IMG/VR virus record: IMGVR_UViG_3300046007_008166
Location: 1-23,769 of that record
From: a virus
Length of the DNA: 23,769 nt
Reading direction: 5' to 3' (one strand)
The position numbers and the translations under genes are program-made. A model generated the notes under the pieces. The model saw only the letters and a program-made list of their open reading frames with translations. It was not told the DNA's origin and did no database searches. Within the stretch, counting starts at the first letter, position 1. The number at the start of each line of letters is the position of its first letter. Below are positions 1-19,600 of the stretch, piece after piece.

Positions 1-52
1 AAGTGCAGAAAAGTTTATTAGCCAATTCGTATACTGTTATTATTCGTGGCAT
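1..52 (-). CDS. 5' end of an unidentified gene (truncated by window edge)
   Basis: An ATG at 52-50 opens a frame that stays open to the window edge and gives 17 codons starting MPRIITVYELANK. It begins 7 nt after the stop codon of the polymerase gene and is read in the same direction. The repeated ATAAATAT element (plus-strand reading, 51-58) overlaps the start codon, as if the element served this gene. Too little is visible to name a product. It could also be a chance open stretch. Confidence 0.4.
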   Translation of the reverse strand, partial: MPRIITVYELANKLFCT

Positions 53-58
53 AAATAT
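51..58 (-). promoter_or_regulatory. Repeated ATATTTAT element, copy 1
   Basis: Exact copy of the 8-mer (minus-strand ATATTTAT) found before many genes of this window. Here it overlaps the ATG of the edge gene, which is closer than at other sites, so its use is less certain than for copies placed 13-25 nt upstream. Confidence 0.35.
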
Positions 59-59
59 G

Positions 60-1316
60 TTAAATTCTTGTTAAATTACTGTAATTGTCTCCTGTAGCTA
101 CTCTAACCTTATGGCGTACTTGATCAAAAGATGAATGATACTCACAAGTAGTTATTATCTCTGGTAGATGTTTCATGTCTTCCTTAGCCATGTCAATTAG
201 AAACGAGTCGTAGTTATATAGTACTATTTTACTTTTAAGTCTATTAGCTCTAAATATAAACAAAAGGTGATTCAAAATTACTATGTTCCGTTCAGTTTCA
301 TAATATTGTAAGTAATAATTCAATAATTTACTTGGCGTTAAATCGCTTTTAACGCCGAATAAACCGCCGTCATATTCTTGCCATAATTTATCCGTAAGCT
401 CAGATGCCGCGCGAAAATACGGCGTATCTAGCGTAATACCACCATATAATTGGCGGAATGTATTCACCTTAGCTGTTTCAACATCTGTACCCATCTGATT
501 AGCTAGGTCTAGATAGATATTATCACTAAAATGAAACGGTTCTTTAAGATGGTTATTTAATAGTCGTGGATGATACCCATTAAAGTCAAGCTCAACAAAC
601 ATATAATTAGTTGGCTCAAACGCGTCACGTTTATCTTTTGGTATAGCACTAAAATTTATACCATTAAATGAATTGGTAGGTCGTGTTGTTTTATTATTTA
701 AGTTATACTTAGTGTATATCTTATTACCTATCATTGAATGTGGTGCATAAGTTATGTCAAAGTATTTATTTATCTTTTTAGGATCACAACCTATACCTTG
801 TTTTTCTATTTCATAAAATATATAATATTTTTTATGTTCCTCATTTAATGGAAATTTACCATAAAAACTATCTGTGTATAAATTATTATACTTTTCATAA
901 TGTTTTGATATAGGAATTAGCTGGTTTAAACCGACATGGTAATACTTTGATTTGTATAAATGATCATGTATAGGAGTATTAAAAACAGCTATATTTGAAT
1001 ATTGAATGTTTATTAATTGTTTACCTAGATTGTCTAAAAAATATAAAGTATATTTTGGATCAATACATAATAATGTGCCTGATAGTGCTATGTTACTTAA
1101 AAATAACTTAACTTTCTCCCATGGTACATTTAATGACTCAGGGTGATTAACACATATCATATATGGTTTAGTATCATGCCATCCATAAAAAAACACTAAG
1201 CAAGGTGCGGTGAGTGCAGGATGAACCAAATCATTAAGTGGTACAATATGAATAAATGCTGTTTGGTTATGGCTTAAAGTAGCCAGTTGTTCCTCTGTCT
1301 CAATGATGTAATGCAT
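60..1316 (-). CDS. Short family-A DNA polymerase (PolA-type palm/fingers, no recognisable exonuclease)
   Basis: The 418-residue protein carries the polymerase motifs of the DNA polymerase I family. TRPTNSFNG...AIPK (about 211-227) corresponds to the TGRLSS..NLQNIP segment. Motif A is LDFNGYHPRLL, with the metal-binding Asp244. Motif B is KVNTFRQLYG (283-292), which matches the Kxxx(F)xxxYG spacing of the fingers helix exactly. Motif C is YNYDS, with Asp370 in the place of HDE. Both catalytic Asp residues are therefore present, although motif C lacks the usual His and Glu. Residues 1-160 show no DxE exonuclease motif, so proofreading seems absent or degenerate. Expected role: templated DNA synthesis during phage replication. 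It lies 47 nt after a baseplate-associated gene, an unusual place for a replication gene. The leader has AAAGG 3 nt before the ATG, about the only SD-like sequence in the window, and no ATATTTAT element. Confidence 0.78.
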   Translation of the reverse strand: MHYIIETEEQLATLSHNQTAFIHIVPLNDLVHPALTAPCLVFFYGWHDTKPYMICVNHPESLNVPWEKVKLFLSNIALSGTLLCIDPKYTLYFLDNLGKQLINIQYSNIAVFNTPIHDHLYKSKYYHVGLNQLIPISKHYEKYNNLYTDSFYGKFPLNEEHKKYYIFYEIEKQGIGCDPKKINKYFDITYAPHSMIGNKIYTKYNLNNKTTRPTNSFNGINFSAIPKDKRDAFEPTNYMFVELDFNGYHPRLLNNHLKEPFHFSDNIYLDLANQMGTDVETAKVNTFRQLYGGITLDTPYFRAASELTDKLWQEYDGGLFGVKSDLTPSKLLNYYLQYYETERNIVILNHLLFIFRANRLKSKIVLYNYDSFLIDMAKEDMKHLPEIITTCEYHSSFDQVRHKVRVATGDNYSNLTRI

Positions 1317-1363
1317 AAACCTTTATTTCAATAAAGATAAGATAAAATCTTAAGGTAGAAAAA

Positions 1364-1957
1364 CTAAGATTCTCTAAATTGCAAAGGATCAGTTAAGAAT
1401 GATGAAACACCTTTAATTATTTTTTCAGCTTCTTGTATTGAACGTAAATTAGCATCTCTAACACCAACTGCTACTCTAATATTACCACTAAAAGCATCAT
1501 CAATTGGACCTGTTAATTTCCAAAATAATGGTACTGTTGGGTAAACTAGACTTAAAGTTGTGTTTTGAATTATTTTATCATAATGATCCTTATTCACTTC
1601 AATGAATATAGGTTGTGATGCTGATATAAATTTAGCTATATAACGAGTAAAATAACCTTTAGCATAATCATCAGCTGTTGGTTGTATAAAATCATTATTG
1701 AATGATTCAGTTTGTATACTTTTACCATATGCTTTAGTATAAGAAGCATTAACTAAAGAATTAGCTGGGTTGGTTGTTTGTTGTGTGTATATAGGTCTAA
1801 GTTGGATTGAAGAACTAGATGATTCTTTGCCTGACCAGTAATTTCCTTGTTTGTCTTTAAAATAATATCCCTTATAGCTTAGCTGAGTTGCTGCTATTAA
1901 ATACTCTGTTCCTTGAGTATATCCTGTTTCTACTATATTTGATTTAGGTATGTACAT
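1364..1957 (-). CDS. Baseplate-region structural protein of unknown function, 197 aa
   Basis: The N-terminal part (residues about 12-47) has the pattern YTQGTEY...YKGYYFKDKQGNYWSGK. Similar YxGyYh...dG..ytGk segments occur in small proteins next to baseplate genes in many uncultured marine phage genomes (from memory, not searched). No catalytic motif, signal peptide or membrane helix is evident. The start codon follows the stop of the 1042-aa gene by 1 nt, so the two are almost certainly translationally coupled and probably act in the same structure. Likely a minor baseplate or tail-tip component; the exact role cannot be read from sequence. Confidence 0.7.
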   Translation of the reverse strand: MYIPKSNIVETGYTQGTEYLIAATQLSYKGYYFKDKQGNYWSGKESSSSSIQLRPIYTQQTTNPANSLVNASYTKAYGKSIQTESFNNDFIQPTADDYAKGYFTRYIAKFISASQPIFIEVNKDHYDKIIQNTTLSLVYPTVPLFWKLTGPIDDAFSGNIRVAVGVRDANLRSIQEAEKIIKGVSSFLTDPLQFRES

Positions 1958-1958
1958 A

Positions 1959-4900
1959 TTATTGTGCTTCTACTGATATACCTATTGGGCTAATTGCTGT
2001 AGGTGACGCAGCTGGGTCTACTTTTGCTACTGTGAATGATCTTATCCAATTATAATATACATCATATAATGCTTGGTAATCTAATTTTCCTCCTTTAGTT
2101 GGAAATTCTAACTTAAATCGAGAACCATTTGGTTTAAGTATAGGTAATAAAGGATATTTTGTTGGGTTTGTTCTAGATAAAAATACATCTCCAGCTCCAC
2201 TATCAAAATTATCATCATTATAATCTAATTCAAAGTTACCACCAACATTTTTAGTGTTATATCCTTGATATGCTACTCCTTCAAAATCAAAAACCAATGG
2301 TAATGTTGTTTCAACATTATTAACAACAACAGGTATTCTTATACTATTGTTTGATTCAAATTCTGATGGTGGTATAATTCTATCTTTAGCTGCTTGACTT
2401 GTAACTAAAGGTAAAATTTTATTATACCATTGAGCATAATAAGCTTTAAAACCTAATGGTTTACTTCCATAATACCCAGCTAAAAATTCATAAGCGGTGT
2501 TATCACTTTTGCTTACTGAACTATCATTCATGTATGTATTAGGTATATTTGTTATAGTACCACTATCAAAATCTTTACCACTTTTTTTAATAACTTCTTT
2601 AGTTAAGTAAACTAACCAATCAACATACGCGTCCCAAACACCACTATTTTTTAATTCAATATTTCTAAGTTCATCTAAAGCAGCTAATAATTTAGCTTGA
2701 AGATCTTTATTTGGATTTTCTTTTTTAAGTTCATCTTGATCTAATAAACATATTTGAGTTCTTAAACGAGTAACCCAATCATTATTTTGCAATGTATGAG
2801 ATATACCTGTTATAATAAAACCAACATGTTTTTGAGAATAATCTCTAGGTAAAATAGATGTGTCAACAGTAAATAGCTGTCCAATAACAAAACCACCTAT
2901 ACCATCTAATTCTATTTCAAGTTCAAACGGAATGATAGCTTTGAAATCAATATCTTCACCTGCTACTTGTAATTGAAATGTTTTTAATAAGCTACTAGCT
3001 GATTGTATTTCATTACTTTGAGGTACTATTATTTTATATATACCATTATCTCCTTCTTTACCTGAACATTTTAAGTTAAGATAATACTGTAAATTTTTAA
3101 TGTTACTAAATAACGTTTTAACATAAGCTAATTGATCAGCAGCTGTAGGTGCCTTTCCTGGTTTTAGTCTATCTGTTAATCCATTATTAAGGTATGCTTG
3201 TGTTGATGAGTATATGTCACCAATGTTAGCTCTAGCTTGAGCTGATATGGCAATCATGGTTGATTGGCTTTCAAATATACGTGAGTTAATTTTAACATCA
3301 CGACATATGCTTTTTAAACCAACTAAATCAAATTTATATTTTGTATTTTTAGCGCTTTTAGATCCATTTTCAAGATACTTAGCATCAATGATTTGTGCTT
3401 TGTTTTTATCAACAAATATTTTAAAGTCATTAATACCACCTAAAGCAAAAGAAATATCATCTAATAGTTTTTGTAAGTAATCAACTAATAAAACACCATC
3501 TTGTCCTTGGTTTGTTGATTTATATAATCTAACTAATTTATCAATAGACACTAAAATATTACCTACATCACCATTTCCATCCGCTTGCAAAAATTCATTT
3601 AATATTACATCTTGATGTATATAAGCCCCAGTGTCTGTTTGACCACCAAAAGTATAAAGTTTAGGATTAAATCCATCAATAGGAAATCCTTTACTAGTAT
3701 CATTACCTGTTATAAGTTTAGCTTTACTATTTCTTATAGTACAAGTAGTAGGATCAATTGATACAGAGTTTTTACTAGCTAAACAAGGTGTACCTTGAGG
3801 TAATAATATTTTTACTAATGTTTGGTTAGTCTCGTTTTTTAATGTGAAATAAGTATTAATAATAGCTATAAATGTATTCAAAGGAATATATTCAACACCT
3901 GTACCTTGCTCAGCGTTACCATCAGCTAAAACATAAGCACCTAATACTCCTACTCCTAAAGGTTCACGAACAGAAGAAGCACCATCATATGCTTCAAAAG
4001 TAGTTGATTTTAAAGTAGTATTTAGTTCTTTTACTTGTTGAGTTGCTGTGCTAATATTAATCTGTGATGTTATAAAAGCAGGGTTTGATTTATCTTTCTC
4101 TGCTTTAACAAATGAACCATTAGGATCAATTGTTTCTTTTTGGTTAAGATAAGCCTGGATGTTATAGAATATTCTTTCAAAGTTAGTTAGGGCAGGTTCA
4201 CCTGTATCAGATGTAGGTAAAAGAGAAGTTATTCTATTATCTGTGTTACTACTTAATTTTAAAGTTGATATTACTTCACCTCTTGATATTAATATAGTTG
4301 TACATTCAAATCCTCCATTAGGCATTAGCTGCCATGAAAAATTTCTAATGTAACCTAACATACCATCATAGTTACCATTTGTTTTCTCATTATATTTTTC
4401 TATAAGAGAATAAACTGTATCTTCTGTTAATCCTGCTTTAAAAGGATCAATTGTAGGTGTATTAAATGTTTTTATGTTTATACCACTTGGTACATCATTA
4501 ATACCTGCAACATTATGATCTAGATACTCACTCCATCCCCATTCAAGTAAAACAGTATAACCTGTTCTCATATATAATAACTCAAGTTCTTCTAGTTGGT
4601 GTTTATCCCAACAAAAAAACTTAATAGTAGCTTCTCTTAATGAACCATAAGCACTTTTACTTATAACACTAACTGAGGTAATTCCAGGCATTGGTCTTAT
4701 ACCAAACTGTCTATCAACAATATTAGCTTTATTAGTAACACTTATATCATAAGTTCTATCAATTTCACTACCATAGGCAGAGCCAGGACTTAATAAACCA
4801 GAACGTAATGAAAAGTCATTTGTTCCTTGTTTATTATATAAAGTACCTCCTTCTAAAACATACTTTCTAGCTAATTGTTGACCTTGATATTTGTATCCTG

Positions 4901-5087: not shown

Positions 5088-5093
5088 AACTTA

Positions 5094-5399
5094 TTAAGCG
5101 GTTTCATTTAATAATAGGAAATCATTCACTATTTTTGTTTTATTAGCAGGAATTCTTAATTGAAAACCACCAGGAGGATATAAAGAATCATTAGGTAATG
5201 TTGGGTTAGCTATTGATAATATCCACCATAAGGTAGCATCTTGATAGAATTGATACGCTAAATTATCTAACCTATCACCACGTACAGTGTAAATAAATAC
5301 ATCATTTTCACTAAAAGGTATGTCAGGGTAGCGTGTAGAAGCACGATATCGTACTCCATCTTTAGCTATTAATATTCTATTATCAGTATAACGGTCCAT
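5094..5399 (-). CDS. Baseplate wedge protein, gp53/LysM-like
   Basis: A 101-residue protein. Residues 35-85 carry a LysM-like fold signature: FIYTVRGDRLDNLAYQFYQD, then LWWILSIANP, then PGGFQLRIP. GDRLDxLAxxFYxDaxLWWiIaxAN..dp is characteristic of the small gp53-type wedge proteins and related LysM-like baseplate proteins of myoviruses, which join inner baseplate parts rather than degrade peptidoglycan. It lies between the 605-aa junction-type protein and the hub-like protein, which fits baseplate assembly. The ATG at 5399 is only 4 nt from an ATATTTAT element, which implies a very short leader if that element is a promoter. No SD sequence is present. Confidence 0.75.
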   Translation of the reverse strand: MDRYTDNRILIAKDGVRYRASTRYPDIPFSENDVFIYTVRGDRLDNLAYQFYQDATLWWILSIANPTLPNDSLYPPGGFQLRIPANKTKIVNDFLLLNETA

Positions 5400-5403
5400 G
5401 ATA

Positions 5404-5411
5404 ATAAATAT
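5404..5411 (-). promoter_or_regulatory. Repeated ATATTTAT element, copy 2
   Basis: Exact 8-mer, embedded in the near-palindrome GATAATATTTATTATC, in the 28-nt gap before the gp53-like gene. It is only 4 nt from the ATG, so transcripts would be almost leaderless if it acts as a -10 type promoter core. Confidence 0.4.
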
Positions 5412-5427
5412 TATCTCAATAAGTTAT

Positions 5428-7245: not shown

Positions 7246-7502
7246 TACTTAGGTAAATTTTTAGTATATTCTTTTGGTGTTTGACCACCTAAGTCTAAAC
7301 GTGAAGGTGGTACCTTCGTGATATTAACACCTTTACCATAAGTTCTACCTAAAATCATATCTTGAGATGATTTTAAGTTATTGTTAGTTGATAAAGCTTG
7401 AATATCAGAAGTTGACTTTTGGAATACACTTTCAAAAGTTGGTCCTGGTTTACCTTTTAAGCCTAATGGGCTTTCTGGTAGTTTGTCAATTAATCCGGGC
7501 AT
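7245..7502 (-). CDS. Small protein after the tape measure, unknown function
   Basis: An 85-residue protein rich in Lys, Pro and Gly, starting MPGLIDKLPESPLGLKGKPG, with no membrane helix or catalytic motif. It starts 25 nt after the tape-measure stop and its own stop codon shares a base with the ATG of the 605-aa gene, so it is probably co-translated with that baseplate protein. An ATATTTAT element lies 17 nt before the ATG and a G-poor, SD-less leader follows. A small tail-tip or baseplate accessory part is the natural guess, but nothing in the sequence proves it. Confidence 0.65.
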   Translation of the reverse strand: MPGLIDKLPESPLGLKGKPGPTFESVFQKSTSDIQALSTNNNLKSSQDMILGRTYGKGVNITKVPPSRLDLGGQTPKEYTKNLPK

Positions 7503-7519
7503 GTTATTGTTTGTTTATA

Positions 7520-7527
7520 ATAAATAT
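7520..7527 (-). promoter_or_regulatory. Repeated ATATTTAT element, copy 3
   Basis: Exact 8-mer 17 nt upstream of the 85-aa gene. It lies directly against the stop codon of the tape-measure gene (7528-7530). Confidence 0.5.
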
Positions 7528-9750
7528 TTAAGCGAATCGTCCTGAGTTGCCGTATTGTCCTGCACTTGTTTGCCATTTCTGTATAGTATCACCACCTGTT
7601 GATAAGTTGGCTTGTACTACTACTGGTCGATTAGCTAAAGCAGCTATATCATCTCTAGTCACACCACCACCGCTTCCACCTTTCATGGCGTCAGCTATAC
7701 CTGGTGCTGCTACAACTTGATCAGATTTATCAGTTATGAATGAGCCTTTAGGCCCTGATACTATTAGTCGACCACCTGTGTCTATACCACCATCTTTAAT
7801 TTGAGTAGCACCATATACTAATCCACCTACTAAACCAGCGGCTGCTAAACCACCAAGTAACATTAATGGATTGGATAAGGCTGTACCTATACCTTTAGCA
7901 ACAGCAGTGGCTTGTTCTATTTTTCTTAACTTATCAGCTAATAAAATCATTTGAGCCATACCTTGTATTGTCTTAATAATACCTCCAGCTATCATTACTC
8001 CCATAATAGTACCTAATACAGCAGCATTATCTAAAAGTTTACCAAGCATTCTTACAAAGTCACCCATTGGTCCATCCACAATACTAACTAAAACTTCTTT
8101 TAGTTTAGTAAATGTTTCATTTAATCTATCTTGTGCTGCTTGTTGTTCAAGAGATTTCATAACAGATTGTTCAAGTGTTATACCATTCTCTTGAGCATAT
8201 TTTAATTGTTCAGCAGCTGATTTTTCAGCTACATCACCTAACTTAGCAAATTTTTCTTGGTCAATTAAGGTTTGAGATAATTCATCTCTACTCATACCCA
8301 TAGTTTTAGCTATGGATTCTTGTTGTAACCTATTCATTTTGTTGTACTCAACTAAACCACCTGTTTGTTTAGCTAACTCATTCATTAATCCAACTGAGTC
8401 ATTAGTTAAGGCATAGTATCTAGCTTTTTCAAAGTTAAGTTCTTTACCTGTTAATAATTCAGCTTCAAGTTCACTCTGAATTGATTGTTCAAAGTTAAGA
8501 AGTGACTCTCCTATCTTACTTACTTGATCAAGAGTTAAGCCTAAAGATTTAGCTTGTACTACTGCTGCAGCTAATGCTTTTGGATTTTGATTAAAAGTAA
8601 CTAATATACCTCCACTTAATTTAGAGATGTCTTTCATTACATCTCTAGCACTGATCTGAACCCTATATTGTTTATTAGATGCTACAGTACCAGCTATAAT
8701 AGCTTCTTCTGTTTGTTTAAGTGTCTGGTTGTTTAATTTGCTTATAGCAAATAGTTTAGTTGCTTCTTGAGCACTTAAACCTATTGTTTTAGTTAATTCA
8801 GTGAATTGAACTACTTCTTGCTCACTAAACTTAAGTGAAGTACCTAACTCAGCATTTATTTCTTGTAATCCTTTAAGTAAAGTACTTAATGCAAAATTAC
8901 TATCAGTGAATTTACCTGATACTTTGCCTAGACTTTCACCAAATGCTTCAGCTTGTTTAACTGAAATACCTAATTGTTGAGCAGTTTCAGTTTGTTGTTT
9001 ATTTAAAGCTTTGAATGTCTCAAATAATGAACGAAGAGTAAGACCAAAAGTGATGGCACCTAAAACACTATCTAAAACTTTCTTACGAAGTTCTTCTTGT
9101 TCTTTCTTTTGTTGTTGTATTAAGTTAACACCTTGTTTTAGCTTATTATTTCCTTCTTGATAGTTTTGAATTAATCTATCAGTGACTTCAATATTCTTTT
9201 GTATTTGTTCTACTCTATCTTGTTCAGCTTGAGTAGCTTCCATAGCAGCCTCAAGTATCTGTTGAGCTGCTTTAGCTTGTTGTAAAGTACCTGATGCTAG
9301 AGCGGTTTGATAATCAAGTTGAGCTCTTTGTTGTTCAGATTGTTTTAATGCTAAGTCATTTTGAGCTATTGCTAAGTCAGTTTGAATTTGTTTTCTAGCT
9401 GTACCTAAGTCAATTATCTTAGCTTCATTTTTCTGTATTTCTTTTTGTAAATCAATTTCTTTAACTAAACCTTTACCTAATGATTCAAGTAATCTTATTT
9501 GGCTTGTTAAAGTAGCATTTATGCCTCTGTTAATTTTAAGTAAAGTATTAACAGCATCAATATCACCACCTGTGGCGTTAGTTAAATTTTTAGTATTTCT
9601 AACTTGTGTAATAATTTCAGCACCAATATTTCTATTGATGGCTAAAACATCATTAAGTTCATCAGCTAATTTTTTAGCTTCAACTTGAGCAGCACGTAGC
9701 TCATCAGCTGATGGGTCCATAAATAGGCGTGGTGTAAAGTCTGTACGCAT
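7528..9750 (-). CDS. Tail tape measure protein
   Basis: A 740-residue protein. Residues about 15-225 are Gln/Leu/Lys/Glu-rich and strongly predicted coiled coil by eye. Hydrophobic stretches lie at 227-243, 574-606 and 623-650, as in tape measures that insert into the host membrane. The C-terminus has GGRLIVSGPKGSFIT (about 659-673), a pattern seen in gp29-type tape measures. It follows the tube and gp26-like genes, the canonical position. The protein should span the tube lumen, set tail length and leave during injection. At the family rule of about 0.15 nm per residue this predicts a tail near 110 nm. The start is uncertain: ATG at 9750 is used here, but Met11 (ATG at 9720) would leave 34 nt from the upstream element instead of 4. 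No lysozyme domain is visible. Confidence 0.9.
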   Translation of the reverse strand: MRTDFTPRLFMDPSADELRAAQVEAKKLADELNDVLAINRNIGAEIITQVRNTKNLTNATGGDIDAVNTLLKINRGINATLTSQIRLLESLGKGLVKEIDLQKEIQKNEAKIIDLGTARKQIQTDLAIAQNDLALKQSEQQRAQLDYQTALASGTLQQAKAAQQILEAAMEATQAEQDRVEQIQKNIEVTDRLIQNYQEGNNKLKQGVNLIQQQKKEQEELRKKVLDSVLGAITFGLTLRSLFETFKALNKQQTETAQQLGISVKQAEAFGESLGKVSGKFTDSNFALSTLLKGLQEINAELGTSLKFSEQEVVQFTELTKTIGLSAQEATKLFAISKLNNQTLKQTEEAIIAGTVASNKQYRVQISARDVMKDISKLSGGILVTFNQNPKALAAAVVQAKSLGLTLDQVSKIGESLLNFEQSIQSELEAELLTGKELNFEKARYYALTNDSVGLMNELAKQTGGLVEYNKMNRLQQESIAKTMGMSRDELSQTLIDQEKFAKLGDVAEKSAAEQLKYAQENGITLEQSVMKSLEQQAAQDRLNETFTKLKEVLVSIVDGPMGDFVRMLGKLLDNAAVLGTIMGVMIAGGIIKTIQGMAQMILLADKLRKIEQATAVAKGIGTALSNPLMLLGGLAAAGLVGGLVYGATQIKDGGIDTGGRLIVSGPKGSFITDKSDQVVAAPGIADAMKGGSGGGVTRDDIAALANRPVVVQANLSTGGDTIQKWQTSAGQYGNSGRFA

Positions 9751-9754
9751 GTAT

Positions 9755-9762
9755 ATAAATAT
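9755..9762 (-). promoter_or_regulatory. Repeated ATATTTAT element, copy 4
   Basis: Exact 8-mer immediately downstream (in the minus direction) of the hairpin at 9765-9789 and before the tape-measure gene. This is a terminator-then-promoter arrangement. It is 4 nt from the first ATG and 34 nt from the alternative ATG at 9720. Confidence 0.45.
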
Positions 9763-9764: not shown

Positions 9765-9789
9765 AGAGCGACTATTTTTTAGTCGCTCT
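9765..9789 (-). terminator. Hairpin overlapping the 3' end of the 94-aa frame
   Basis: Perfect 10-bp stem AGAGCGACTA / TAGTCGCTCT with a five-A loop (minus strand), followed by the T-rich TTATATTTATATA. The stem contains the TAG stop codon and last codons of the 94-aa frame. It separates that gene from the tape measure, so it is a probable Rho-independent terminator or attenuator. The T-tract is interrupted by A, so termination may be partial. Confidence 0.6.
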
Positions 9790-10056: not shown

Positions 10057-10762
10057 TTGGTAGGTTAACGCCCTCCACTACGTCACCATTAGCTCTAGTT
10101 ACGCTAATCTTCATGTTAATGTCTGGAGCGATTTGATTTATATGGCTTTGTAAAGATCTTACGTCTTTAGCTAACATATTATCAACAAATCCTCTAATAG
10201 TGGATTGCTCTCTATTACCATTAATTGCTGTTATAGTATGTTTTAAACGAGTAGTTACATCAAATGAACCTTGTGGGCTTAATTTTTTCATACCCACTAT
10301 TTCCTTATCAATATTTTTCTCATCATGGTTATTTAATAACTTAAATGATACTACTATTTTAGACATTGGTAATGTAAAATCAAAGTCATTTTTACCTGGT
10401 GTGAAAATAGATTCATCAATTGGTTTAGGGTCAAGTGTTGTTAAGTCAAAATTGATTTTTTCATCACCAAGAGAAAACTCATATTCTTTACCATAACCTA
10501 AAATACGAGATGCTATTAATAAAGCGTTTTTGTCACCTACTAATAAGTCATCATAATTGATTGGTGTAATAACCATTGATTGTATTAACTTATCAATCAC
10601 AATACCTTGTTTAATAAAGTTAGTGTTTGTAAGTATATCTTCTTCTTTAGCAGTCATGTACTTCATCTCTACAAAACCTTTAGCTAATGGGGAGTCTACA
10701 GGATATGGTAATCCTTTTGATGGTAGGTCGATTCGTTCAGTTGGGAACTTTAATTCACTCAT
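10019..10762 (-). CDS. T4 gp26-like baseplate / tail-assembly protein
   Basis: A 247-residue protein. The N-terminal segments LPSKGLPYP (13-21), EMKYMTAKEEDILTN (32-46) and DLLVGDKNALLIASRILGYG (72-91) are those I associate with the T4 gp26 baseplate family (the family called T4 base plate protein in Pfam; not searched). In T4, gp26 is needed to assemble the central hub. Here the gene sits between tube and tape measure, the usual place of tail-assembly chaperones, so an assembly-factor role is plausible. The 3' end contains AAC TTT TTT TGG, a run of seven T, inside the overlap with the 94-aa frame. A terminator and an ATATTTAT element precede the gene, so it probably begins a transcription unit. 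The leader is A-rich and has no SD. Confidence 0.8.
   Translation of the reverse strand: MSELKFPTERIDLPSKGLPYPVDSPLAKGFVEMKYMTAKEEDILTNTNFIKQGIVIDKLIQSMVITPINYDDLLVGDKNALLIASRILGYGKEYEFSLGDEKINFDLTTLDPKPIDESIFTPGKNDFDFTLPMSKIVVSFKLLNNHDEKNIDKEIVGMKKLSPQGSFDVTTRLKHTITAINGNREQSTIRGFVDNMLAKDVRSLQSHINQIAPDINMKISVTRANGDVVEGVNLPIGVNFFWPDAGI
10039..10045 (-). other. Candidate +1/-2 ribosomal frameshift site (T7 run)
   Basis: Seven consecutive T on the minus strand, read as AAC TTT TTT TGG in the gp26-like frame and as ACT TTT TTT GGC in the 94-aa frame. A Phe-tRNA can re-pair perfectly with TTT after a +1 or a -2 slip, and translation then continues through the 94-aa frame. A -1 slip would hit TGA almost at once. 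Use of the site is inferred. Confidence 0.4.
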
Positions 10763-10786
10763 AACGTTTTATTTGTTTTTATATAT

Positions 10787-10794
10787 ATAAATAT
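10787..10794 (-). promoter_or_regulatory. Repeated ATATTTAT element, copy 5
   Basis: Exact 8-mer 24 nt before the ATG of the gp26-like gene and 8 nt beyond the terminator T-tract. The leader after it is A-rich and nearly G-free. Confidence 0.55.
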
Positions 10795-10802: not shown

Positions 10803-10831
10803 AAAAAAGGCCATCCGAATTTCGGATGGCC
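10803..10831 (-). terminator. Rho-independent terminator after the tail tube gene
   Basis: On the minus strand GGCCATCCG - AAATT - CGGATGGCC is a perfect GC-rich 9-bp stem (10809-10831) followed by six T (10803-10808). It begins 23 nt after the tube stop codon. It is the clearest terminator in the window and would end the sheath-to-tube transcript. There is no T-tract on the other side, so it works in the minus direction only. Confidence 0.9.
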
Positions 10832-10854
10832 TAAACTTTATATTTAATGGAAAA

Positions 10855-11340
10855 TTAGTAGTTTAAGATACAATAATCCATGGCAATTGTAAGAGCTATT
10901 GTGATATATTGATCATTAGACCAATCATACTCACCAAAGTTAGCTTCCTTTACATAAGCACCTTTTACGATCCATTCACCTACTACATCACCAACAGGAC
11001 CTAAAACGTCAAAGCGTAAATCTTTTTTATAGAAATCACTATATCCATCTCTACCTGTTACTGACTCATGGGCTAAACGGGCCCACTCCATTACTGCTTG
11101 TGCACCACTTGGAGCGATAGGATCATATAATTCTATGTTCATATCATTCCATCTAACTTTACCTTTAACTTTACGGTAAACGTTGATGTGGTCTAAAATT
11201 ATTTCACCTGCGTTAAAGCTTGGAGACGATGCTTTTTTGATCATGTATGTTGGAATACCGTCGATATACATCGCAAAGCGGTTTTGAACTTTTGGTTCAA
11301 ACGCGGTAAACATTATTTCATTTGGGTCTAATACTGCCAT
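10855..11340 (-). CDS. gp19: Tail tube protein, gp19-like
   Basis: A 161-residue protein, almost the length of T4 gp19 (163). It has the family pattern: FEPKVQNRFAMYIDGIPTYMIKKASSPSF, then DHINVYRKVKGKVRWNDMNIELYDP, and near the end WSNDQYITIALTIAMDYCIL. It forms stacked hexameric rings of the inner tube through which DNA passes. It lies downstream of the sheath, as expected, but separated from it by a 128-aa gene. An ATATTTAT element lies 17 nt before the ATG and the leader (AAACACAACACAAC) is SD-less. A strong terminator follows, so this highly needed protein probably has its own abundant transcript. Confidence 0.93.
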   Translation of the reverse strand: MAVLDPNEIMFTAFEPKVQNRFAMYIDGIPTYMIKKASSPSFNAGEIILDHINVYRKVKGKVRWNDMNIELYDPIAPSGAQAVMEWARLAHESVTGRDGYSDFYKKDLRFDVLGPVGDVVGEWIVKGAYVKEANFGEYDWSNDQYITIALTIAMDYCILNY

Positions 11341-11357: not shown

Positions 11358-11365
11358 ATAAATAT
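11358..11365 (-). promoter_or_regulatory. Repeated ATATTTAT element, copy 6
   Basis: Exact 8-mer within GTATATTTATATC (minus strand), 17 nt before the tube ATG, in the 41-nt gap after the 128-aa gene. The leader between element and ATG contains no G. Confidence 0.55.
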
Positions 11366-11381: not shown

Positions 11382-11768
11382 TTAGATCTTAACATCAGGT
11401 GTACTAGCACCTGAGCCAGCGCCTGTAGCTCTATCCATAGCACCTTTAAATGCTTTAGTAGCTAATGCGTCTAATGTTTTTGGATCTGGAACTTCTTTAC
11501 CGGCTGCTTTAAACTTAGCAACTAATTCTTTTTTAGCTTGTGCTACACCGGCTTTAACAATACCGAATGCTACACCTGCTAAACCAGCGAAGCCACCAAT
11601 CGCTTGAAGAGCTTCCATTGCTTCAGGACTAAGCTCATTTAACTGCTCAGATTCTTCAAGTTTATCTTTTTTGTCTTTTTCTTCTTTAGCTTTTTTATCA
11701 GCTACTTTTTTCTTAATTGCTTCAGCTAATTCTTTAGGAATACGTACTTTGATTTTCTTATTTTCCAT
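11382..11768 (-). CDS. Ala/Lys-rich small protein between sheath and tube, unknown
   Basis: A 128-residue protein. The first 45 residues are highly charged and predicted helical (KKIKVRIPKELAEAIKKKVA and following). A hydrophobic, Gly/Ala-rich stretch at about 55-77 (LQAIGGFAGLAGVAFGIVKAG) could be an amphipathic or membrane-inserting helix, and the Lys/Ala-rich end finishes GSGASTPDVKI. I do not recognise a family. It sits between the sheath and tube genes, which are adjacent in T4. Possibilities are a minor tail part, an assembly factor or an unrelated insertion. It starts 20 nt after the sheath stop, behind a one-mismatch copy of the repeated element. Confidence 0.72.
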   Translation of the reverse strand: MENKKIKVRIPKELAEAIKKKVADKKAKEEKDKKDKLEESEQLNELSPEAMEALQAIGGFAGLAGVAFGIVKAGVAQAKKELVAKFKAAGKEVPDPKTLDALATKAFKGAMDRATGAGSGASTPDVKI

Positions 11769-11781: not shown

Positions 11782-11789
11782 TTAAATAT
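11782..11789 (-). promoter_or_regulatory. Repeated element, degenerate copy 7 (ATATTTAA)
   Basis: 7 of 8 bases match ATATTTAT. It is 13 nt before the ATG of the 128-aa gene and overlaps the sheath stop codon. The mismatch makes it the weakest candidate. Confidence 0.3.
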
Positions 11790-13549
11790 TAAGCGAATGT
11801 TGCACCAGTTGGTTGAACGTTAAAATCTAATCTGATAAATTCAGCAGTCTTAGTTGGTTGTAAAAATATTTGACCTACTAATTGGTTTCTGTCGATTACA
11901 TCAGGTGTGTTGTTTGAATCATCCATTATTACTTGGAATGTATATAAACCTTGTTTTTGTTGAACACTTTCTAAGTATGGAGTAACTTGAGCTAAGAATC
12001 TATTTCTTGTTACAGTTGTATTTTGTTCAAATACTAATGATTTAGCTACGTTACCAATATATCTCTTAAGAGCGATTAATAATCTTCTTACATTAATTCT
12101 ATCTAAAGCACTAGCTTTTGATTGTAATGTTTTCTGACCATATGCTGTAACTCCAATATTAGGGAAAGTAGCAATTGGATTAACTTTACCAGCATATAAT
12201 GTATCACGATCTGATGGTGATAATTTTCTTTCAGCTTGAATAACACCACCAATACCACCTCTATTTAAACCTGCAGGAGCAAACCATTCAGCACTTACAT
12301 CATCGTTAAATGCGTAAACACCAGGCATTACAGTTGAAGCAGGTACCCAAACTAACTTGTTAGTTTCTTGAGACACTACTTGAACCCATGGCCAATAAGC
12401 ACCAGCATAGTTAGTATCAATAGCTTGAGCTTGAGTTACTGAAGCACCCAATGTAGAACCAAAAGGTACTAAATCAGTTATGTAGAAGTAATCACCTCTT
12501 GCTTCAGCGTTTTGAATAAAGCTAGCATCAGCTACATGATACTGAGCTATAATACCAGGAGCTGATAATAATGAATAGTCATATTCATCTTTATTAGCTA
12601 GGATTGAAGAGGCTGTATAATAGTTATCTATTGTTGCATCTGAACGTAAACCTTGAGTTGTAAAAGTACCGTTAGAAGCTATATCTGTATTTAATGAATT
12701 TCCAATGTTTGGAATGTCGTTACCTGAAGCAGCACCAAAAGCACCACCTACTGAACCACTACCAACTACTGGTAATGAACCAGACCAGCTATTTCCAGTT
12801 CCATCAGTTCCAACACCACCTGCATTATTAAAATAATTAGGAGTTGAAGCTACTGATTTAACACGAACGTAACGGCTAGCATTTGGATAGCTACCAGAAA
12901 TTTGAATATACCAACTACCATTTCCATCAGGTTGAGGTGATTTTTTATAGTCACCAATCACTGCTGCGATGTAGTTAGGTTGTAATGGATCTAAAGAAAC
13001 ATTAGGATAAGTTTCTAAAACAACTTTGCTGTTTTGATTATCATCACCTCTACGGATCAATACTGAGAATGTACCTGTTTTAGTGTTTGTATTTGTTACT
13101 TCCCAACGAACGTTATCAGCTGTACCATTTGATAATGAGTTATTACTTAGAATAGTACCTTCGTTATTGTTTATAGTACCTACATTTAATGTTTCTAAAA
13201 CAAATGAAGGAGTGACTGCACTAGCAGTTGTAGCAATTAAACTTGAAGTAGCAGGAGTAAAAGTACTAGCAACAACTCTTGTCACTAATATTGTACTACC
13301 ACCCTGTAAGAAATAATTATAAGCTGCAACTGAAGTTAAGAATTCATAAGCAGCACCGCCACTAATGAATGAACCACCAAATTTGTTTTTGAAATCACTA
13401 TATGAAGTTACAACAGTTGGAACGTTAGGTAAACCCTTAACTGTTGGACCTACTAACGCTAAACCTACGGTAACTGGACCTTGTGTTATAAATGACTGGT
13501 CGTTTTCTACGGTTAGTACGCCTGGAGAGATTAATGTTTCTTGCGCCAT
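11789..13549 (-). CDS. gp18: Contractile tail sheath protein, gp18-like
   Basis: A 586-residue protein (T4 gp18 has 659). The N-terminus SPGVLTVENDQSFITQGPV...GLALVGPTVKGLPNVPTVVTSYSDF is the hallmark of phage sheath proteins. The C-terminal assembly domain is also present: DRINVRRLLIALKRYIGNVAKSLVFEQN, then RFLAQVTPYLESVQQKQGLYTFQVIMDDSNNTPDVIDRN, then IFLQPTKTAEFIRLDFNV. The middle (about 100-330), rich in Asn/Ser/Gly/Thr, is the variable surface-exposed part. It polymerises around the tube and contracts to drive it into the host. The leader is SD-less and has an ATATTTAT element 25 nt upstream. A hairpin separates it from the genes before it. Confidence 0.96.
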   Translation of the reverse strand: MAQETLISPGVLTVENDQSFITQGPVTVGLALVGPTVKGLPNVPTVVTSYSDFKNKFGGSFISGGAAYEFLTSVAAYNYFLQGGSTILVTRVVASTFTPATSSLIATTASAVTPSFVLETLNVGTINNNEGTILSNNSLSNGTADNVRWEVTNTNTKTGTFSVLIRRGDDNQNSKVVLETYPNVSLDPLQPNYIAAVIGDYKKSPQPDGNGSWYIQISGSYPNASRYVRVKSVASTPNYFNNAGGVGTDGTGNSWSGSLPVVGSGSVGGAFGAASGNDIPNIGNSLNTDIASNGTFTTQGLRSDATIDNYYTASSILANKDEYDYSLLSAPGIIAQYHVADASFIQNAEARGDYFYITDLVPFGSTLGASVTQAQAIDTNYAGAYWPWVQVVSQETNKLVWVPASTVMPGVYAFNDDVSAEWFAPAGLNRGGIGGVIQAERKLSPSDRDTLYAGKVNPIATFPNIGVTAYGQKTLQSKASALDRINVRRLLIALKRYIGNVAKSLVFEQNTTVTRNRFLAQVTPYLESVQQKQGLYTFQVIMDDSNNTPDVIDRNQLVGQIFLQPTKTAEFIRLDFNVQPTGATFA

Positions 13550-13574
13550 GTTTTTATGTATGTTTTATCTAATG

Positions 13575-13582
13575 ATAAATAT
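13575..13582 (-). promoter_or_regulatory. Repeated ATATTTAT element, copy 8
   Basis: Exact 8-mer 25 nt before the sheath ATG, in a 132-nt non-coding gap and beyond the hairpin at 13612-13645. This is a natural place for the promoter of the sheath-tube unit. Confidence 0.55.
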
Positions 13583-13611
13583 GAAGGGATTGATATAAAA
13601 CGATAAGTATT

Positions 13612-13645
13612 GGAAGAGCCCCATCATCGCTGACGGGGCAATTCC
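13612..13645 (-). terminator. GC-rich hairpin before the sheath gene (terminator or leader structure)
   Basis: Minus strand GCCCCGTCA - GCGA - TGATGGGGC: a 9-bp stem with one G-U pair closed by a GNRA-type tetraloop (13618-13639). It can be extended by GGAA/TTCC across a 2x2 internal loop. It lies 37 nt past the stop of the 72-aa gene. No T-run follows directly (TCTTCCAATACTT), so it may be a terminator of weak type, an mRNA 3'-end stabiliser or a structured 5' element. Confidence 0.45.
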
Positions 13646-13681
13646 TATTTACTCCTAACACCTAACAATACATATTATAAT

Positions 13682-14393: not shown

Positions 14394-14396
14394 ATA

Positions 14397-14645
14397 TTAT
14401 TTTACTTTTTTAGCTTGTTTTTTAGCTTGTGGTTTTTTAGTTGCTGATTGTTTAGCAACTGGCTTTTTAGCGGCCGCTTTAGCTACAATAGCTTCAACGA
14501 TAGCTGGTTCTGGGGTAGCTTCAGGAGCTAAGTCATGAGATTCATCGTGAAGTTTTACTTCAACTTTTTGTTCTTGTTTTTTGTTAACTGAATAAGCTAC
14601 AAATCCTGCAACTGCTAACAATAGAATAATAATTAATAAAGTCAT
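14397..14645 (-). CDS. Single-pass membrane protein with histone-H1-like Lys/Ala/Pro tail
   Basis: 82 residues from the ATG at 14645. An N-terminal membrane helix TLLIIILLLAVAGFVAYSV is followed at once by positive residues (NKKQEQK), which predicts a cytoplasmic C-terminus. Next come an acidic Pro-containing linker and a Lys/Ala/Pro-rich end (AAAKKPVAKQSATKKPQAKK), like the tails of histone H1 and bacterial Hc1-type proteins. A longer start at 14696 exists, but it would place the ATATTTAT element inside the coding sequence and add a second hydrophobic stretch, so the shorter start is preferred. Possible roles: tethering DNA or RNA at the membrane, or a lysis accessory such as a spanin-like part. 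No spanin lipobox is seen, and the function is unknown. Confidence 0.7.
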   Translation of the reverse strand: MTLLIIILLLAVAGFVAYSVNKKQEQKVEVKLHDESHDLAPEATPEPAIVEAIVAKAAAKKPVAKQSATKKPQAKKQAKKVK

Positions 14646-14668
14646 AAATTGTGTTTTTAATGCTATAT

Positions 14669-14676
14669 ATAAATAT
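14669..14676 (-). promoter_or_regulatory. Repeated ATATTTAT element, copy 9
   Basis: Exact 8-mer in TATATATTTATATATAGC (minus strand), 23 nt before the preferred ATG at 14645 of the membrane protein, in the gap after the PA14-like gene. Confidence 0.5.
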
Positions 14677-14709
14677 ATAATACTTTGTGAAAGCAACCAA
14701 ATTTATTTA

Positions 14710-16224
14710 TTAGAAGCAAGCTCCATCTGCAACATAAACATAAACTGTAGCTCCACTATCTATTTGGGCACTTACTAATGTGCAGGTGCCAGATGATCCA
14801 TTTAATGTACAACATATAGTACCAGCTCCAGTATCATATATGTTTATATTTTGGCTTGGTATATGGCCACCATAATCAACAAATATAGTATTAGATGCAC
14901 CAGAAACATAAGCAGTAGTTGTAAATGTTCCATTTTCGCCTGCATCAACATTAAAGTTAGCTCCACTATCATAATTAACCGCAACTCCATTAATATATAC
15001 ACCTGTAATAGGTACATCAAGTGAGTTATTGTAAATAGCTATATAAGCTACGCCACCAGGTGTTGGTGTTGGTGATGGAGTAGGAGTTGGAGTAGGTGTA
15101 GGTGTTAAAGTTGGAGTTAATGTTGGTGTAGGTGTTGGAGCACCAGGAGTTAAAGTTGGTGTTGGTGTAGGTGTCATTGTTGGTTGAGGACATTCTATTG
15201 ATGTATTATTAAAAAATGCTCCAATAACACCAGATCCTTTATAATTAGCAGATGAGTCTAGAATATTAATTCCAGATGGGGTAGCAGATCCTCCAGGAGC
15301 TGAAGCTATACTAGCTGATATTTGGGTTGAAGTATTGTTATATACTTCAACACCCATGCATCCTTGAGAACCAATATTAGTGCCTAATACTCTAATTGTT
15401 CTAGTTCCGGCACTTAAAGTGATAGGATATATATGCCAATATCTAAAGTTATTTACATCTGATATGTTGGCTGTTTGGGCGAATTGGAATACATTATCAA
15501 CATATAAAGCTATGTAGTTATCACTACCTACTCCGACAAAATAAGTACCTGTACTAGGTACAGCTACACCAAAAGATAAACTACCAGTTCCAACATAAGT
15601 TTGAGAACCAGACCAAATACCTGTTTGGTTTAATCTACCAGCAGCTGTTGATTGGTTTGGATTAGCCCAATAGGTACCAGAATAAGAACCACCATCATTA
15701 GCTGTTTTCCAATCTATGTAAGTACCACTACCATCACTATTAACTGTAGAGTATAATCTTACTCCATTCATTCCATAAACACCAAGTTGAGACGCAGCTG
15801 AGTTACCTGATGATACTCTTCCATTGCATGCTCCTCCTGCTGTCACTGTTAAACCACTATTACTAGTTACAGCCATAGTACCATCATAGTTCATGCGTGT
15901 ACAATAGTTTTTATCTGTATTAGCAGGAACACTAATGTTAGTAGGAATACCAGGATATGCTACAATAGTAGCAGTACCTGTTGAACCTCCAGCTACATAT
16001 CTTGTACATTTATATAACGCTTCTTGAGCGTAGAAATCACTGTAATTGAATGGAGCTGACTGGTTAACACCAGCAGTATTAACATTACCTGATCGATACC
16101 AGTACACCATAGAATCAGTAGTAGGAGTTGTTCCACCAGCCAACTTGTGAGTTGTGCCAGTAGAAGCTCCTACTTCTAAAGATATAATGTCTGAACTAAG
16201 TACTCCCTGTGATGGTAGTGCCAT
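14710..16224 (-). CDS. Tail-tip / adhesin-like protein with PA14-like domain and Thr-Pro linker
   Basis: A 504-residue protein. The N-terminus MALPSQGVLSSDIISLEVG plus APFNYSDFYAQ resembles the start of minor tail proteins of marine phages. Residues about 150-300 (GVRLYSTVNSDGSGTYIDWK..., GVAVPSTGTYFVGVGSDNYIALYVDN, TLSAGTRTIRVLGTNIGSQGCMGVEVYN) look like a PA14/GLEYA-type carbohydrate-binding beta-barrel; this is my reading of its pattern. Residues 347-389 are an almost pure Thr-Pro linker. The C-terminal domain (390-504, AYIAIYNNSLDVPITGVYINGV...) is a separate beta-rich unit. Two Cys lie side by side near the end (TICCTLNG). A likely virion adhesin binding host surface glycans. It starts 18 nt after the neighbouring 134-aa gene and has no ATATTTAT element, so it is probably co-transcribed. 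Confidence 0.75.
   Translation of the reverse strand: MALPSQGVLSSDIISLEVGASTGTTHKLAGGTTPTTDSMVYWYRSGNVNTAGVNQSAPFNYSDFYAQEALYKCTRYVAGGSTGTATIVAYPGIPTNISVPANTDKNYCTRMNYDGTMAVTSNSGLTVTAGGACNGRVSSGNSAASQLGVYGMNGVRLYSTVNSDGSGTYIDWKTANDGGSYSGTYWANPNQSTAAGRLNQTGIWSGSQTYVGTGSLSFGVAVPSTGTYFVGVGSDNYIALYVDNVFQFAQTANISDVNNFRYWHIYPITLSAGTRTIRVLGTNIGSQGCMGVEVYNNTSTQISASIASAPGGSATPSGINILDSSANYKGSGVIGAFFNNTSIECPQPTMTPTPTPTLTPGAPTPTPTLTPTLTPTPTPTPTPSPTPTPGGVAYIAIYNNSLDVPITGVYINGVAVNYDSGANFNVDAGENGTFTTTAYVSGASNTIFVDYGGHIPSQNINIYDTGAGTICCTLNGSSGTCTLVSAQIDSGATVYVYVADGACF
15059..15186 (-). repeat. Thr-Pro linker repeat (ACNCCN units)
   Basis: Low-complexity tract coding Thr-Pro pairs with occasional Leu, Ser and Ala, residues about 347-389 of the 504-aa protein. 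The plus strand reads as repeated GGTGTT/GGTGTA/GGAGTT units. It acts as a stiff extended spacer between two beta domains and is prone to length change by strand slippage. Confidence 0.85.
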
Positions 16225-16242
16225 AACTTATTTTAGTTTATT

Positions 16243-16647
16243 TTAGATTGAACCTGTTGGTACAAACGGTGTTGGTGTTGGTTCTGCTGTAGGAGTTGGT
16301 GTTGGAGGGATAGTCCAAGGTGATTGTAAAGTCACTACAGGAGGATTGATTTGGTTAGCGATGTTAGTTGCTAATCCATCCTTTAAGTTTTGTACTTGTT
16401 CAGCGCCCATACCTTCTTCTACCCATCCTTGTACTACTTCTAATGTTAATTCCTCAAAAGGAATAAACGCTGATCCTGAATGTACAGGGATAGATTGAGT
16501 ACCAATTGAGGTAGCATTGTAAGTAACATCTTCTACTGTTTCAGTAGCGTGTAATTGCCAGTGAGCCACGAATACTACATCAAGTTCACCTGATGAGGTA
16601 GGGTAAGCTTCTAACGGGTTAATTGTCCAATTGTAAGAAACGGCCAT
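16243..16647 (-). CDS. Small phage protein (DUF7936-like) with Thr-Pro tail
   Basis: A 134-residue protein starting MAVSYNWTINPLEAYPTSSGELDVVFVAHWQLHATE. FIPFEELTLEVVQGWVEEGMG...INPPVVTLQSPW completes a pattern I know from small proteins near tail-fibre genes in cyanophages and other marine phages (called DUF7936 in recent annotation, from memory; not searched). Function unknown; probably a tail or fibre accessory. The last 20 residues are a Thr-Pro tract like the linker of the next gene. The ATG follows the fibre stop by 11 nt. An ATATTTAT element lies 25 nt upstream, inside the last fibre codons. Confidence 0.75.
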   Translation of the reverse strand: MAVSYNWTINPLEAYPTSSGELDVVFVAHWQLHATETVEDVTYNATSIGTQSIPVHSGSAFIPFEELTLEVVQGWVEEGMGAEQVQNLKDGLATNIANQINPPVVTLQSPWTIPPTPTPTAEPTPTPFVPTGSI

Positions 16648-16658
16648 TGTATTTTATT

Positions 16659-19600
16659 TTATTTGTTTTGTAATAAATATTTAAGTTCATCGATTTGATG
16701 TTGTTGTTCTTTGATTGCTTCAATAAGCAATGGTACTATCTTTTCATATCGTACTGCTTTATATCCACTATCTCTTGTAGTTACAAGTTCAGGTAATACT
16801 TCTTCAACTTCTTGAGCTATTACACCATAATCTTTTTTACCTGTTTCGTAAACAGATTGTTTATCATTCCAGTTGAACGACACACCATTTATCTTTGATA
16901 TTTTTTCAAGTGGTGATTCAATAGCGCTAATATTATCTTTTAATTTAGCATCTGAGCTAAAGTATGCTATAATATCTCCTGTGGCGTTAATATTACCTTG
17001 GAAGTAGTTATTATTGTTTGGTAAACCATACTTTCTAGCTAGGTAGGTTTCAACATATAGTATTTCTTCTGTAGTTAATGATCTATTGAACACAATAACT
17101 TCAGCTACCATCCAGTTTGATGGTTCTCCATTATTACCTGCATTAATGCTAAGTCTGTCACTTGTTCCTCCACCACCTGTAGCTGAGTATACAGAAGCAT
17201 TACTTTGACCTTTGTAATATGAGTTTTGATCTGTTGAAAGTACCCAGTTAGTAGTAAAATGATCTGTTTGATCTGTTATCCATCCTTGATGAAAAGCAAC
17301 TCCAGAATTTCCACTCCAGAAACCAGATAACCAGTTTGTAGTATATCCTGAAAAAATTCTTGCTTCAGTACCACCAGCATATCTAGCCACATGGAATAAA
17401 GTATAAGTTGTAGGAAGAATAGCTGTTGGCCACACTAAAGCGTCACTTGTACTACCACTAACAACACTAAATGATTTATAAGCATTTTGAACACCACCAC
17501 TAAATGTCACTTTAGTTGGAGATCCTTGTGATCCGTTTGTATGGTTAGCATTACCAGAAATATCATACCATACTTTATCAGTTGCATTATATGAATCTCC
17601 TGTATACCATCCTACTAAACCAGCTAAACTTCCTATTTCTTCATCTTGACCTACTTTAGCACCTGATAGATTTACAGAGCGAGCCATTGTAGCTCCAGTA
17701 TCACCAAGTATTTGCATTAGTGTACTAGGTTGGTTTCCATATCCTTTAGCTCCTTTAGCAAACACAAATGATCTACCACCAACTGCATTAGTATTATCAA
17801 TAGCAAATGTTTGGCTAAAATGTGAACTTATAACAGCATTATCTGTATTAGTAAATTCTATTGTTGATACAGTTGTTAAAGCAGCTGGTGCTATTGTTAA
17901 TTTAGAAGGTACAGTTGTAGTACCTATACCGACATTACCATTAGAGTCAATTAACATTCTAGAAGATCCAGCTGATCCGTCATATATGTTTAATGATGTA
18001 GAAGATCCAATAATTTCGAATAATCTACCATTAGAAATTTGTAATTTTGTTCTTGTAAGGATATCTGAGTCTGCTGTTAATACTCCACTAAATCTACCTT
18101 GTCCACTAACATCTAATCTATAGGCGGGTGATGATGAACCTATACCTACGTTGCCAACAGCACCTGCTCCAGCAGGCAATAATGCGAAACTAGTGTTTGT
18201 ATACCAATTAGAAATAGTACTTGATTGATAGAAAGTCATTACTTGAGTACCATTACCTATTGCTATATCATTAGCTCCAAAGCCAGTAGTTCCAACTGAA
18301 CCAATTTGAAGTTTATTTGCTGGTGATGTGGTACCTATACCGACATTACCAGAACTATCAATTTTAACTTTTACTCCTTGAGTTCCTAGATTAAAATAAA
18401 AACCATTGTAAGCATTAAACCACATTATTTCACCAGCTCCACCAGCACCATCTAATCCAATACCAGGATCATTATGTACACCACCATTATCATACATTTT
18501 GACTCTATAACCAGTTTCTGATTCAGGTCCACTAAATCCTCCTCCTGCTACATATACTGCTCCACTTCTTACATCTAATTTATATGCTGGTGATGAAGTG
18601 CCTACACCTACATTTCCATTAGAATTTATAAAAATTCCATAATTACCATTTACAACAGCCTCAATTTGAGCATTGTTATTACCATAAATGTAAGTATTAG
18701 CTCCCCATTTTAATGAAGCACCAGTAGTAAATCCAATATCATTGTTAACTGTTAATCTATAAGCGGGAGATGTAGTACCTATACCAACATTGCCATTTTT
18801 CAAAGTCATTGTGCTTAAAGAAGCTCCACTAGTAGTAGAAGTACAAAATTCTAAATAACCGTCAGCCCATGCTGAACCTACATTATTTACTTTAGCGTTA
18901 GCTACCCATCCATTATATCCATTAGCATGGCCTAAAAACCATTCAATACCTTTATCAGCATCACCTACAATTCTAATACCATCAATTCCTGAAGTAGCTC
19001 CTGTTATGACAGCGCCAGCATTAACTTGAAGTTTAGTTACTGGTGATGTAGTACCAATACCAACATAGCTTCCAGTAATTCTCATTATTTCAGTATTAGA
19101 AGAACCAATACCAAACATTATTGAACCTGCAGCGTTAGCTGCTAATAAAGCAACACCTCTTTGATTATTATATATACCTCCTAAGTTTGGAGCATTTGTT
19201 AATATACCAGAACCACCAGCATTATATGATGTTCCTGTATGGAAAAATTGTGTTCTTGTAGTTCCATTACTAGCAAAGAACTGAGCTGTTGCTGCAGTTC
19301 CTGAGTTTGGGTTTGTGATTTGATAAACAACATCCCCATTAGATGATTTATAAGCTTCTACTAATTGAGATGGTGATGTAGTACCTATACCAACATTACC
19401 ATCATCATAATTAATTTTTAATCTATCAGTATCAGCTCCAACATATGAGCTTTGTAAATAGAAATGACCATCATTTTTAGCTCTAAATCTCCAACCTCTA
19501 TCATCATTTTCTTGTACTATATATATTTGGTTACCATTTGAATTAGCTCCTTTAATTGTTAATAATCCAGCTGTATTTATACCACTAAGATTAGTATTTA

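Follow-up and report, generated by a model that had tools for sequence, protein, structure and literature searches.

A candidate late-promoter core of T4-like Bacteroidota phages, with a box changed from that of T4

In the late system of phage T4, the promoter TATAAATA works with gp55, gp33 and gp45. The T4 late box is a known promoter, and such boxes drift among T4-like phages, as in Aeromonas phage Aeh1, where the change lies at -13/-12 (a/gC for TA) (PMC2988020). The published promoter consensus of Bacteroidota (Bacteroidales) has TTTG at -33 and TANNTTTGY at -7 (PMC8748976). Here we analyse the 8-mer ATATTTAT in IMG/VR record IMGVR_UViG_3300046007_008166, a whole virus contig of 23,769 bases that is a fragment of its phage and is called the window below. 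An earlier reading of these letters alone, without database searches (the sequence-only reading), had proposed this element as a phage-specific promoter core, and the proposal is supported as far as sequence goes. We suggest, with a probability of roughly 80%, that ATATTTAT is the late-promoter core of a broad group of T4-like Bacteroidota phages, in a system of the T4/gp55 kind with a changed box.

The window is AT-rich (GC content about 0.34), its long genes are all on the minus strand, and their products are those of a T4-like contractile tail, with sheath, tube, baseplate hub and wedge, and a long fibre. Its closest annotated phage is Flavobacterium phage immuto (MW353175; complete, 160 kb), with 52% identity in the sheath and 65% in the tube. 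The box is frequent in the structural regions of immuto as well, where it stands at the terminase, sheath, tube and hub genes in an identical gene order; the immuto record carries no annotation of a promoter or sigma factor. As far as titles and abstracts show, which is not proof of absence, the searchable literature describes no late promoter or late sigma factor for these phages, and holds nothing on ATATTTAT or TATTTAT as a phage promoter or on the promoters of immuto. Alongside the window we used five large relatives, namely immuto and the contigs G001 (133 kb), G002 (114 kb), G003 (74 kb) and G004 (57 kb), together with 80 fetched relatives carrying the tube gene, which has more than 600 matches in IMG/VR, and 80 contigs fetched solely on a candidate sigma gene introduced below (the sigma-chosen contigs), among which orthologous genes recur.

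Counted on both strands, ATATTTAT has ten exact copies in the window. The plus strand has none; all ten are on the minus (coding) strand, exactly where the sequence-only reading had placed them. The raw number is ordinary (10 against 5.5 expected, with 5 of 100 shuffles reaching 10), so that the comparison with shuffled sequence proposed in that reading reveals nothing unusual in the count itself, whereas strand and placement are unusual. Eight copies fall within 2.8% of the window sequence (P = 1.5e-11); these eight lie 4-25 nucleotides (nt) before an ATG, compared with an expectation of 0.18-0.40 for sequence composed like the upstream zones (P about 1e-8). The spacing had been described as mostly 13-25 nt, with three copies at or within 4 nt of the start, and we find 17-25 nt at six copies, 4 nt at 5404 and 9755, and an overlap with the ATG at 51. 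A near copy reported at 11782 is indeed present, matching in seven of eight bases, and the coupled gene junctions listed as free of the element contain no good box. The features are as follows.

51..58, minus strand: ATATTTAT, overlapping the start codon of the gene after a polA-like gene; without the downstream consensus
1331..1338, minus strand: ATCTTTAT, a 7/8 variant and possible weak box, 14 nt before the ATG at 1316
5404..5411, minus strand: ATATTTAT box, 4 nt before the ATG at 5399; predicted +1 is the A of the ATG (predicted leaderless)
7520..7527, minus strand: ATATTTAT box, 17 nt before the gene start at 7502; predicted +1 at 7515
9755..9762, minus strand: ATATTTAT box, 4 nt before the ATG at 9750; predicted leaderless; directly 3' of a terminator-like hairpin
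9765..9789, minus strand: terminator-like hairpin of 10 pairs, directly upstream of the box at 9755
10787..10794, minus strand: ATATTTAT box, 24 nt before the baseplate-hub gene start at 10762; predicted +1 at 10782
10808..10832, minus strand: strong intrinsic-terminator-like hairpin of 11 pairs (7 G-C) with a T run, directly upstream of the box at 10787
11358..11365, minus strand: ATATTTAT box, 17 nt before the tail-tube gene start at 11340; kept in 74 of 80 relatives
11782..11789, minus strand: ATATTTAA, a 7/8 copy, 13 nt before the ATG at 11768
13575..13582, minus strand: ATATTTAT box, 25 nt before the tail-sheath gene start at 13549
14669..14676, minus strand: ATATTTAT box, 23 nt before the ATG at 14645 of a small gene (the TTG at 14696 is not used)
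16673..16680, minus strand: ATATTTAT box within the last codons of the fibre gene, 25 nt before the ATG at 16647
20901..20908, minus strand: ATATTTAT inside the fibre gene; without the downstream consensus

The gene starting at 9750 encodes a 740-residue protein, the probable tape measure by synteny with immuto. The copy at 20901, which the sequence-only reading had also seen, has neither the A that follows other boxes nor a purine at position 12 and is therefore probably a chance occurrence; the copy at 51 lacks both as well.

The same placement is found across the relatives. We searched for 8-mers enriched in the zones upstream of genes, with the T4 late region as a positive control; from the T4 late genes this pipeline returns TATAAATA as the top upstream 8-mer and thus recovers a genuine late promoter. 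In line with the motif search that the sequence-only reading had suggested, ATATTTAT heads the upstream 8-mers of the window by enrichment. It also ranks first in G001, second in G004 and ninth in G002, where the words above it are A-rich leader words, while the top 8-mer is TATTTATA, which overlaps ATATTTAT, in immuto and the variant CTATTTAT in G003. In the window, G001 and G004, the upstream zones contain 8, 29 and 17 copies of ATATTTAT versus 0, 3 and 0 of the T4 box. Equal frequency on the two strands had been named as an outcome that would speak against a promoter; instead, coding- and opposite-strand counts are 31 and 4 in immuto, 40 and 4 in G001, 33 and 13 in G002, 11 and 0 in G003, and 28 and 1 in G004, a coding-strand excess of 2.5- to 28-fold (11 to 0 in G003) with clustering before gene starts. 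Within the window and the five large relatives, 99 of 152 boxes are at most 40 nt from a start, compared with 17.6% for 55 permuted 8-mers of the same composition. Upstream of the tail-tube gene the exact box is kept in 74 of the 80 relatives and replaced by CTATTTAT in five more, with a spacing that varies by lineage, and this conservation extends to relatives at 70-90% tube identity. The 80 sigma-chosen contigs served as an independent test; in them, CTATTTAT is the top upstream 8-mer (132 in upstream zones vs 28 elsewhere), and all 80 carry a TATTTAT box before at least one gene, counting orthologous genes that recur.

Alignment of 77 boxes from the window and the five large relatives reveals no conservation in the -35 region; the sole conserved upstream feature is a T-rich stretch 3-6 nt before the box, and the base that precedes the box is variable, with A, T, C and G all occurring. 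Downstream, an A follows the box immediately and leads into an A-rich, G-poor leader (positions 8-24). In 69 boxes from the same genomes, position 12, the fifth base after the box, is a purine in 88% (63% further downstream), and G occupies 28 of 138 cells at positions 12 and 13 versus 33 of 934 beyond them. Distances from box to ATG, taken over 507 distinct boxes with orthologues included, form two classes, one of 4-5 nt and one of at least 11 nt, with none at 9-10 nt; for boxes of the short class, position 12 is the A of the ATG. Because the purine and G signal and the ATG of the short class meet at this position, we infer, as the simplest reading, that the transcription start is the fifth base after the box, which would then span -12 to -5, and that genes of the short class are probably expressed from leaderless mRNAs. 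The predicted +1 is an A at all eight well-placed boxes of the window.

A terminator-like hairpin is found just upstream of 18 of 96 genes with a box but of only 11 of 624 other genes (P = 4e-10). The window contains two strong terminator-like hairpins, each followed directly by a box, and this is how transcription restarting at the head of a unit should look. The sequence-only reading had described three hairpins, each followed by a copy; this was borne out at 10832-10808 and 9789-9765 but not for the third, before 11358, which is not a clear terminator.

A protein that may read this box was sought in immuto. The only match there of the PHROGs T4 late-sigma family, a weak one (E = 0.008), is immuto26A_153, a protein of 232 residues annotated as hypothetical, with more than 600 relatives in IMG/VR. 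A stretch that resembles sigma region 2, IEDLK..IVSMLLEEKI.KFDPTNGAKAYSYFGTIVKRWLINYNN, is conserved in its family. We aligned an AlphaFold model of immuto26A_153 (predicted local distance difference test, pLDDT, 76.7; predicted template-modelling score, pTM, 0.48) with solved structures, and the 50 best-aligned chains are, by their titles, all sigma factors or sigma-like promoter-specificity subunits; T4 gp55 in the late-promoter open complex (7d7c_F) aligns with Z = 10.1 over 127 of 137 residues. Foldseek alone found no match in the PDB under E = 0.001, and the structural support comes from realigning its list and from a viral library, in which the best match (E = 1e-4) has 264 residues, the length of Rhodothermus phage RM378 gene p020. 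A search of the PDB with the sequence profile of the family found no sigma factor, and a search with phrog_12791 found nothing outside T4. The sole match of the Pfam sigma-70 region 2 family, in G003, was rejected as a glycosyltransferase-like frame. With such weak support at the sequence level, family membership rests on the fold, from which we judge that proteins of the immuto26A_153 type are probably gp55-like sigma factors that read the box. A host-type promoter at 76191 precedes the immuto26A_153 gene and a late box at 78884 directly follows it, an arrangement that might befit a switch gene. The candidate and the tube gene occur together in immuto, G002, G048, G052, Mel-JY01 and LR756508, and we would expect the phage of the window to carry such a sigma factor too.

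Two side observations concern this family. The hypothetical protein of RM378 p020 (17032-17826) has weak sequence similarity to it and is possibly the late sigma factor of that phage. In the sigma-like gene of G002 (97236-98210), about 60 inserted residues separate the two conserved halves of the region-2-like stretch.

With T4 late promoters the element shares a single 8-bp AT-only, -10-like box, no -35 element, an AT-rich downstream segment, a place at the head of virion genes and a predicted phage sigma of the region-2 type; the predicted start would put the box about one helical turn upstream, as in T4. In that register the two boxes agree at -12, -11, -10, -7 and -6 (A, T, A, T, A). They differ in that the box here is ATATTTAT or CTATTTAT, that is, (A/C)TATTTAT, with TT for AA at -9/-8 and a T added at -5, and in the leaderless starts predicted for these phages; the change in Aeh1, in turn, is at -13/-12 rather than at -9/-8. 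T4 gp55 stacks Y97 against A-12, contacts A-9 through N13 and H95, and bonds A-8 through T99 (PMC7892883). In a low-identity alignment, F86 and Y97 of the -12 pocket correspond to the invariant F84 and Y95 of the family, while N13, H95 and T99 correspond to T13, F/Y93 and Q/G97. The changed bases and the changed pocket residues would thus coincide, which is suggestive only, as both the register and the alignment are putative; the match is weakened by the -12 base, which is C in many boxes although Y95 is invariant. As a separate observation, complementing the T4 box base by base, without reversing it, gives exactly ATATTTAT. We rejected the idea that it is the T4 box on the opposite strand, since a plain complement differs in polarity, and treat the match as a coincidence.

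Based on these findings, we propose that the single -10-like box, without a -35 element and followed by an A-rich, G-poor segment, would direct initiation at the fifth base after it and would reinitiate transcription where late (virion) units begin, frequently with a terminator immediately before it. For a smaller share of genes, initiation would fall on the ATG itself, leaving the mRNA leaderless. A phage-encoded gp55-like sigma factor with region 2, immuto26A_153 or a relative, would redirect the host RNA polymerase to this box and away from host-type early promoters of the form TTG-N19-TATATTTAG. Initiation at the box, binding by the candidate sigma and late timing are all predictions.

Such early promoters suggest the most serious alternative, namely that the box is an ordinary host-sigma promoter (-7 TAnnTTTG) that lost its -33 element and needs no phage sigma. 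A block of small genes at 60-76 kb in immuto has a separate promoter, TTG-N19-TATATTTAG(G/A)TAT, close to the published Bacteroidales form, and gene content suggests that this block and the structural one are early and late in time. The late box has ATATTTA in common with the early -7 box TATATTTAG, which bears out part of the likeness to the Bacteroidota -7 box that the sequence-only reading had pointed to. The likeness ends there, as the leading T of TAnnTTTG is not conserved in the late box, its final G is a T, and TTG at the -33 distance accompanies 30 of 153 late boxes in the window and five relatives versus 21 of 26 ATATTTAG boxes in immuto. As the sufficiently complete phages of the group also carry a gp55-like protein, we consider a decayed host promoter unlikely. 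Between 67600 and 76300 of immuto, nearly identical early promoters, TTGC-N19-TATATTTAGgTATcAATAATTAAAA, precede many small genes, and their downstream part TATCAATAATTAAAAC is conserved as well as the -7 box.

The remaining alternatives place the box outside transcription initiation or deny it a function. If the box acted in translation, as a leader element or ribosome-binding site for hosts in which Shine-Dalgarno pairing is little used, its nearness to start codons and the A-rich, G-poor leaders would fit, yet its distance to the ATG ranges between 4 and 30 nt and skips 9-10, most internal cistrons lack the box, it follows directly on terminators, and the downstream purine and G signal is anchored to the box and not to the ATG; a role in translation thus appears very improbable. 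The terminator association and the fixed downstream purine would fit an RNA-processing or cleavage site after terminators equally well, but an AT-only, -10-like box is unexpected for a cleavage site, and the T4 analogue from the same pipeline is a known promoter (PMC2988020), so that we give this explanation marginally less credence still. That the box is a chance product of AT-rich intergenic sequence draws on the only marginally high raw count in the window, and is already refuted by the eight copies found where fewer than one is expected from the upstream zones' own composition, by permuted 8-mers that are not so placed, and by the conservation at the tube gene.

Several observations weigh against our proposal of a gp55-type late promoter. 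The start-position signal is weaker in the sigma-chosen contigs, where 32 ATATTTAT boxes were counted, many of them orthologous. The copies at 51 and 20901 do not fit the promoter pattern, and the box next to the polA-like gene, being too close for the predicted +1, is left unexplained by the promoter model. Sequence similarity between the candidate and gp55 is very weak, with a probability of 0.5% in a profile-profile alignment (hhalign) of the family with 17 T4-type gp55 sequences, no support by itself, besides the family match at E = 0.008; the model has a pTM of 0.48, and middling Z values are common among helical proteins. Finally, the sigma gene was not seen in the window or in its closest large relative, G001, where neither profile nor pattern detected a gp55-like frame, because the whole segment is missing from that contig; none was found in the short contigs resembling the window either, as expected of fragments.

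A further-reaching interpretation, which we offer tentatively and hold to be rather doubtful, is that of a split-off T4-type system, in which the -9/-8 pockets of the gp55-like sigma and the box itself (AA to TT) changed in step, the late box has become a near copy of the host -7 box that needs no -33 element, late mRNAs are often leaderless, and immuto-like members do without a T4-type sliding clamp. A gp45-family clamp protein is encoded in G001 (41855-42574, minus strand) and G002 (33277-33993), with weak matches in two others, and none was found in immuto, G048 or G052; the replication machinery differs within the phage group. In T4, gp55 ends in a hydrophobic clamp-binding motif, LDFLY. 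No motif of this type is conserved at the C-terminus of 40 relatives of the sigma candidate, although clamp attachment sites are known to vary (PMC2988020). If this interpretation were true, late transcription in immuto-like phages would no longer be tied to replication through the clamp. These phages offer a test of whether T4-type late transcription needs one, and an example from nature of a box and a sigma pocket that may have evolved jointly.

Water metagenomes are rich in these phages, whose tube and sigma genes each have more than 600 matches in IMG/VR, and a short predictive box with a named candidate sigma would make late expression in uncultured T4-like Bacteroidota phages readable from sequence, and is testable in a cultured phage-host pair. 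One placement of the box recurs outside the structural genes. In four divergent phages, the gene that follows a polA-like gene has a late box touching or overlapping its start codon (window 51-58, immuto 1336, G001, and G003 as CTATTTAT), and the protein encoded there has a conserved NKLFCT segment near its start.

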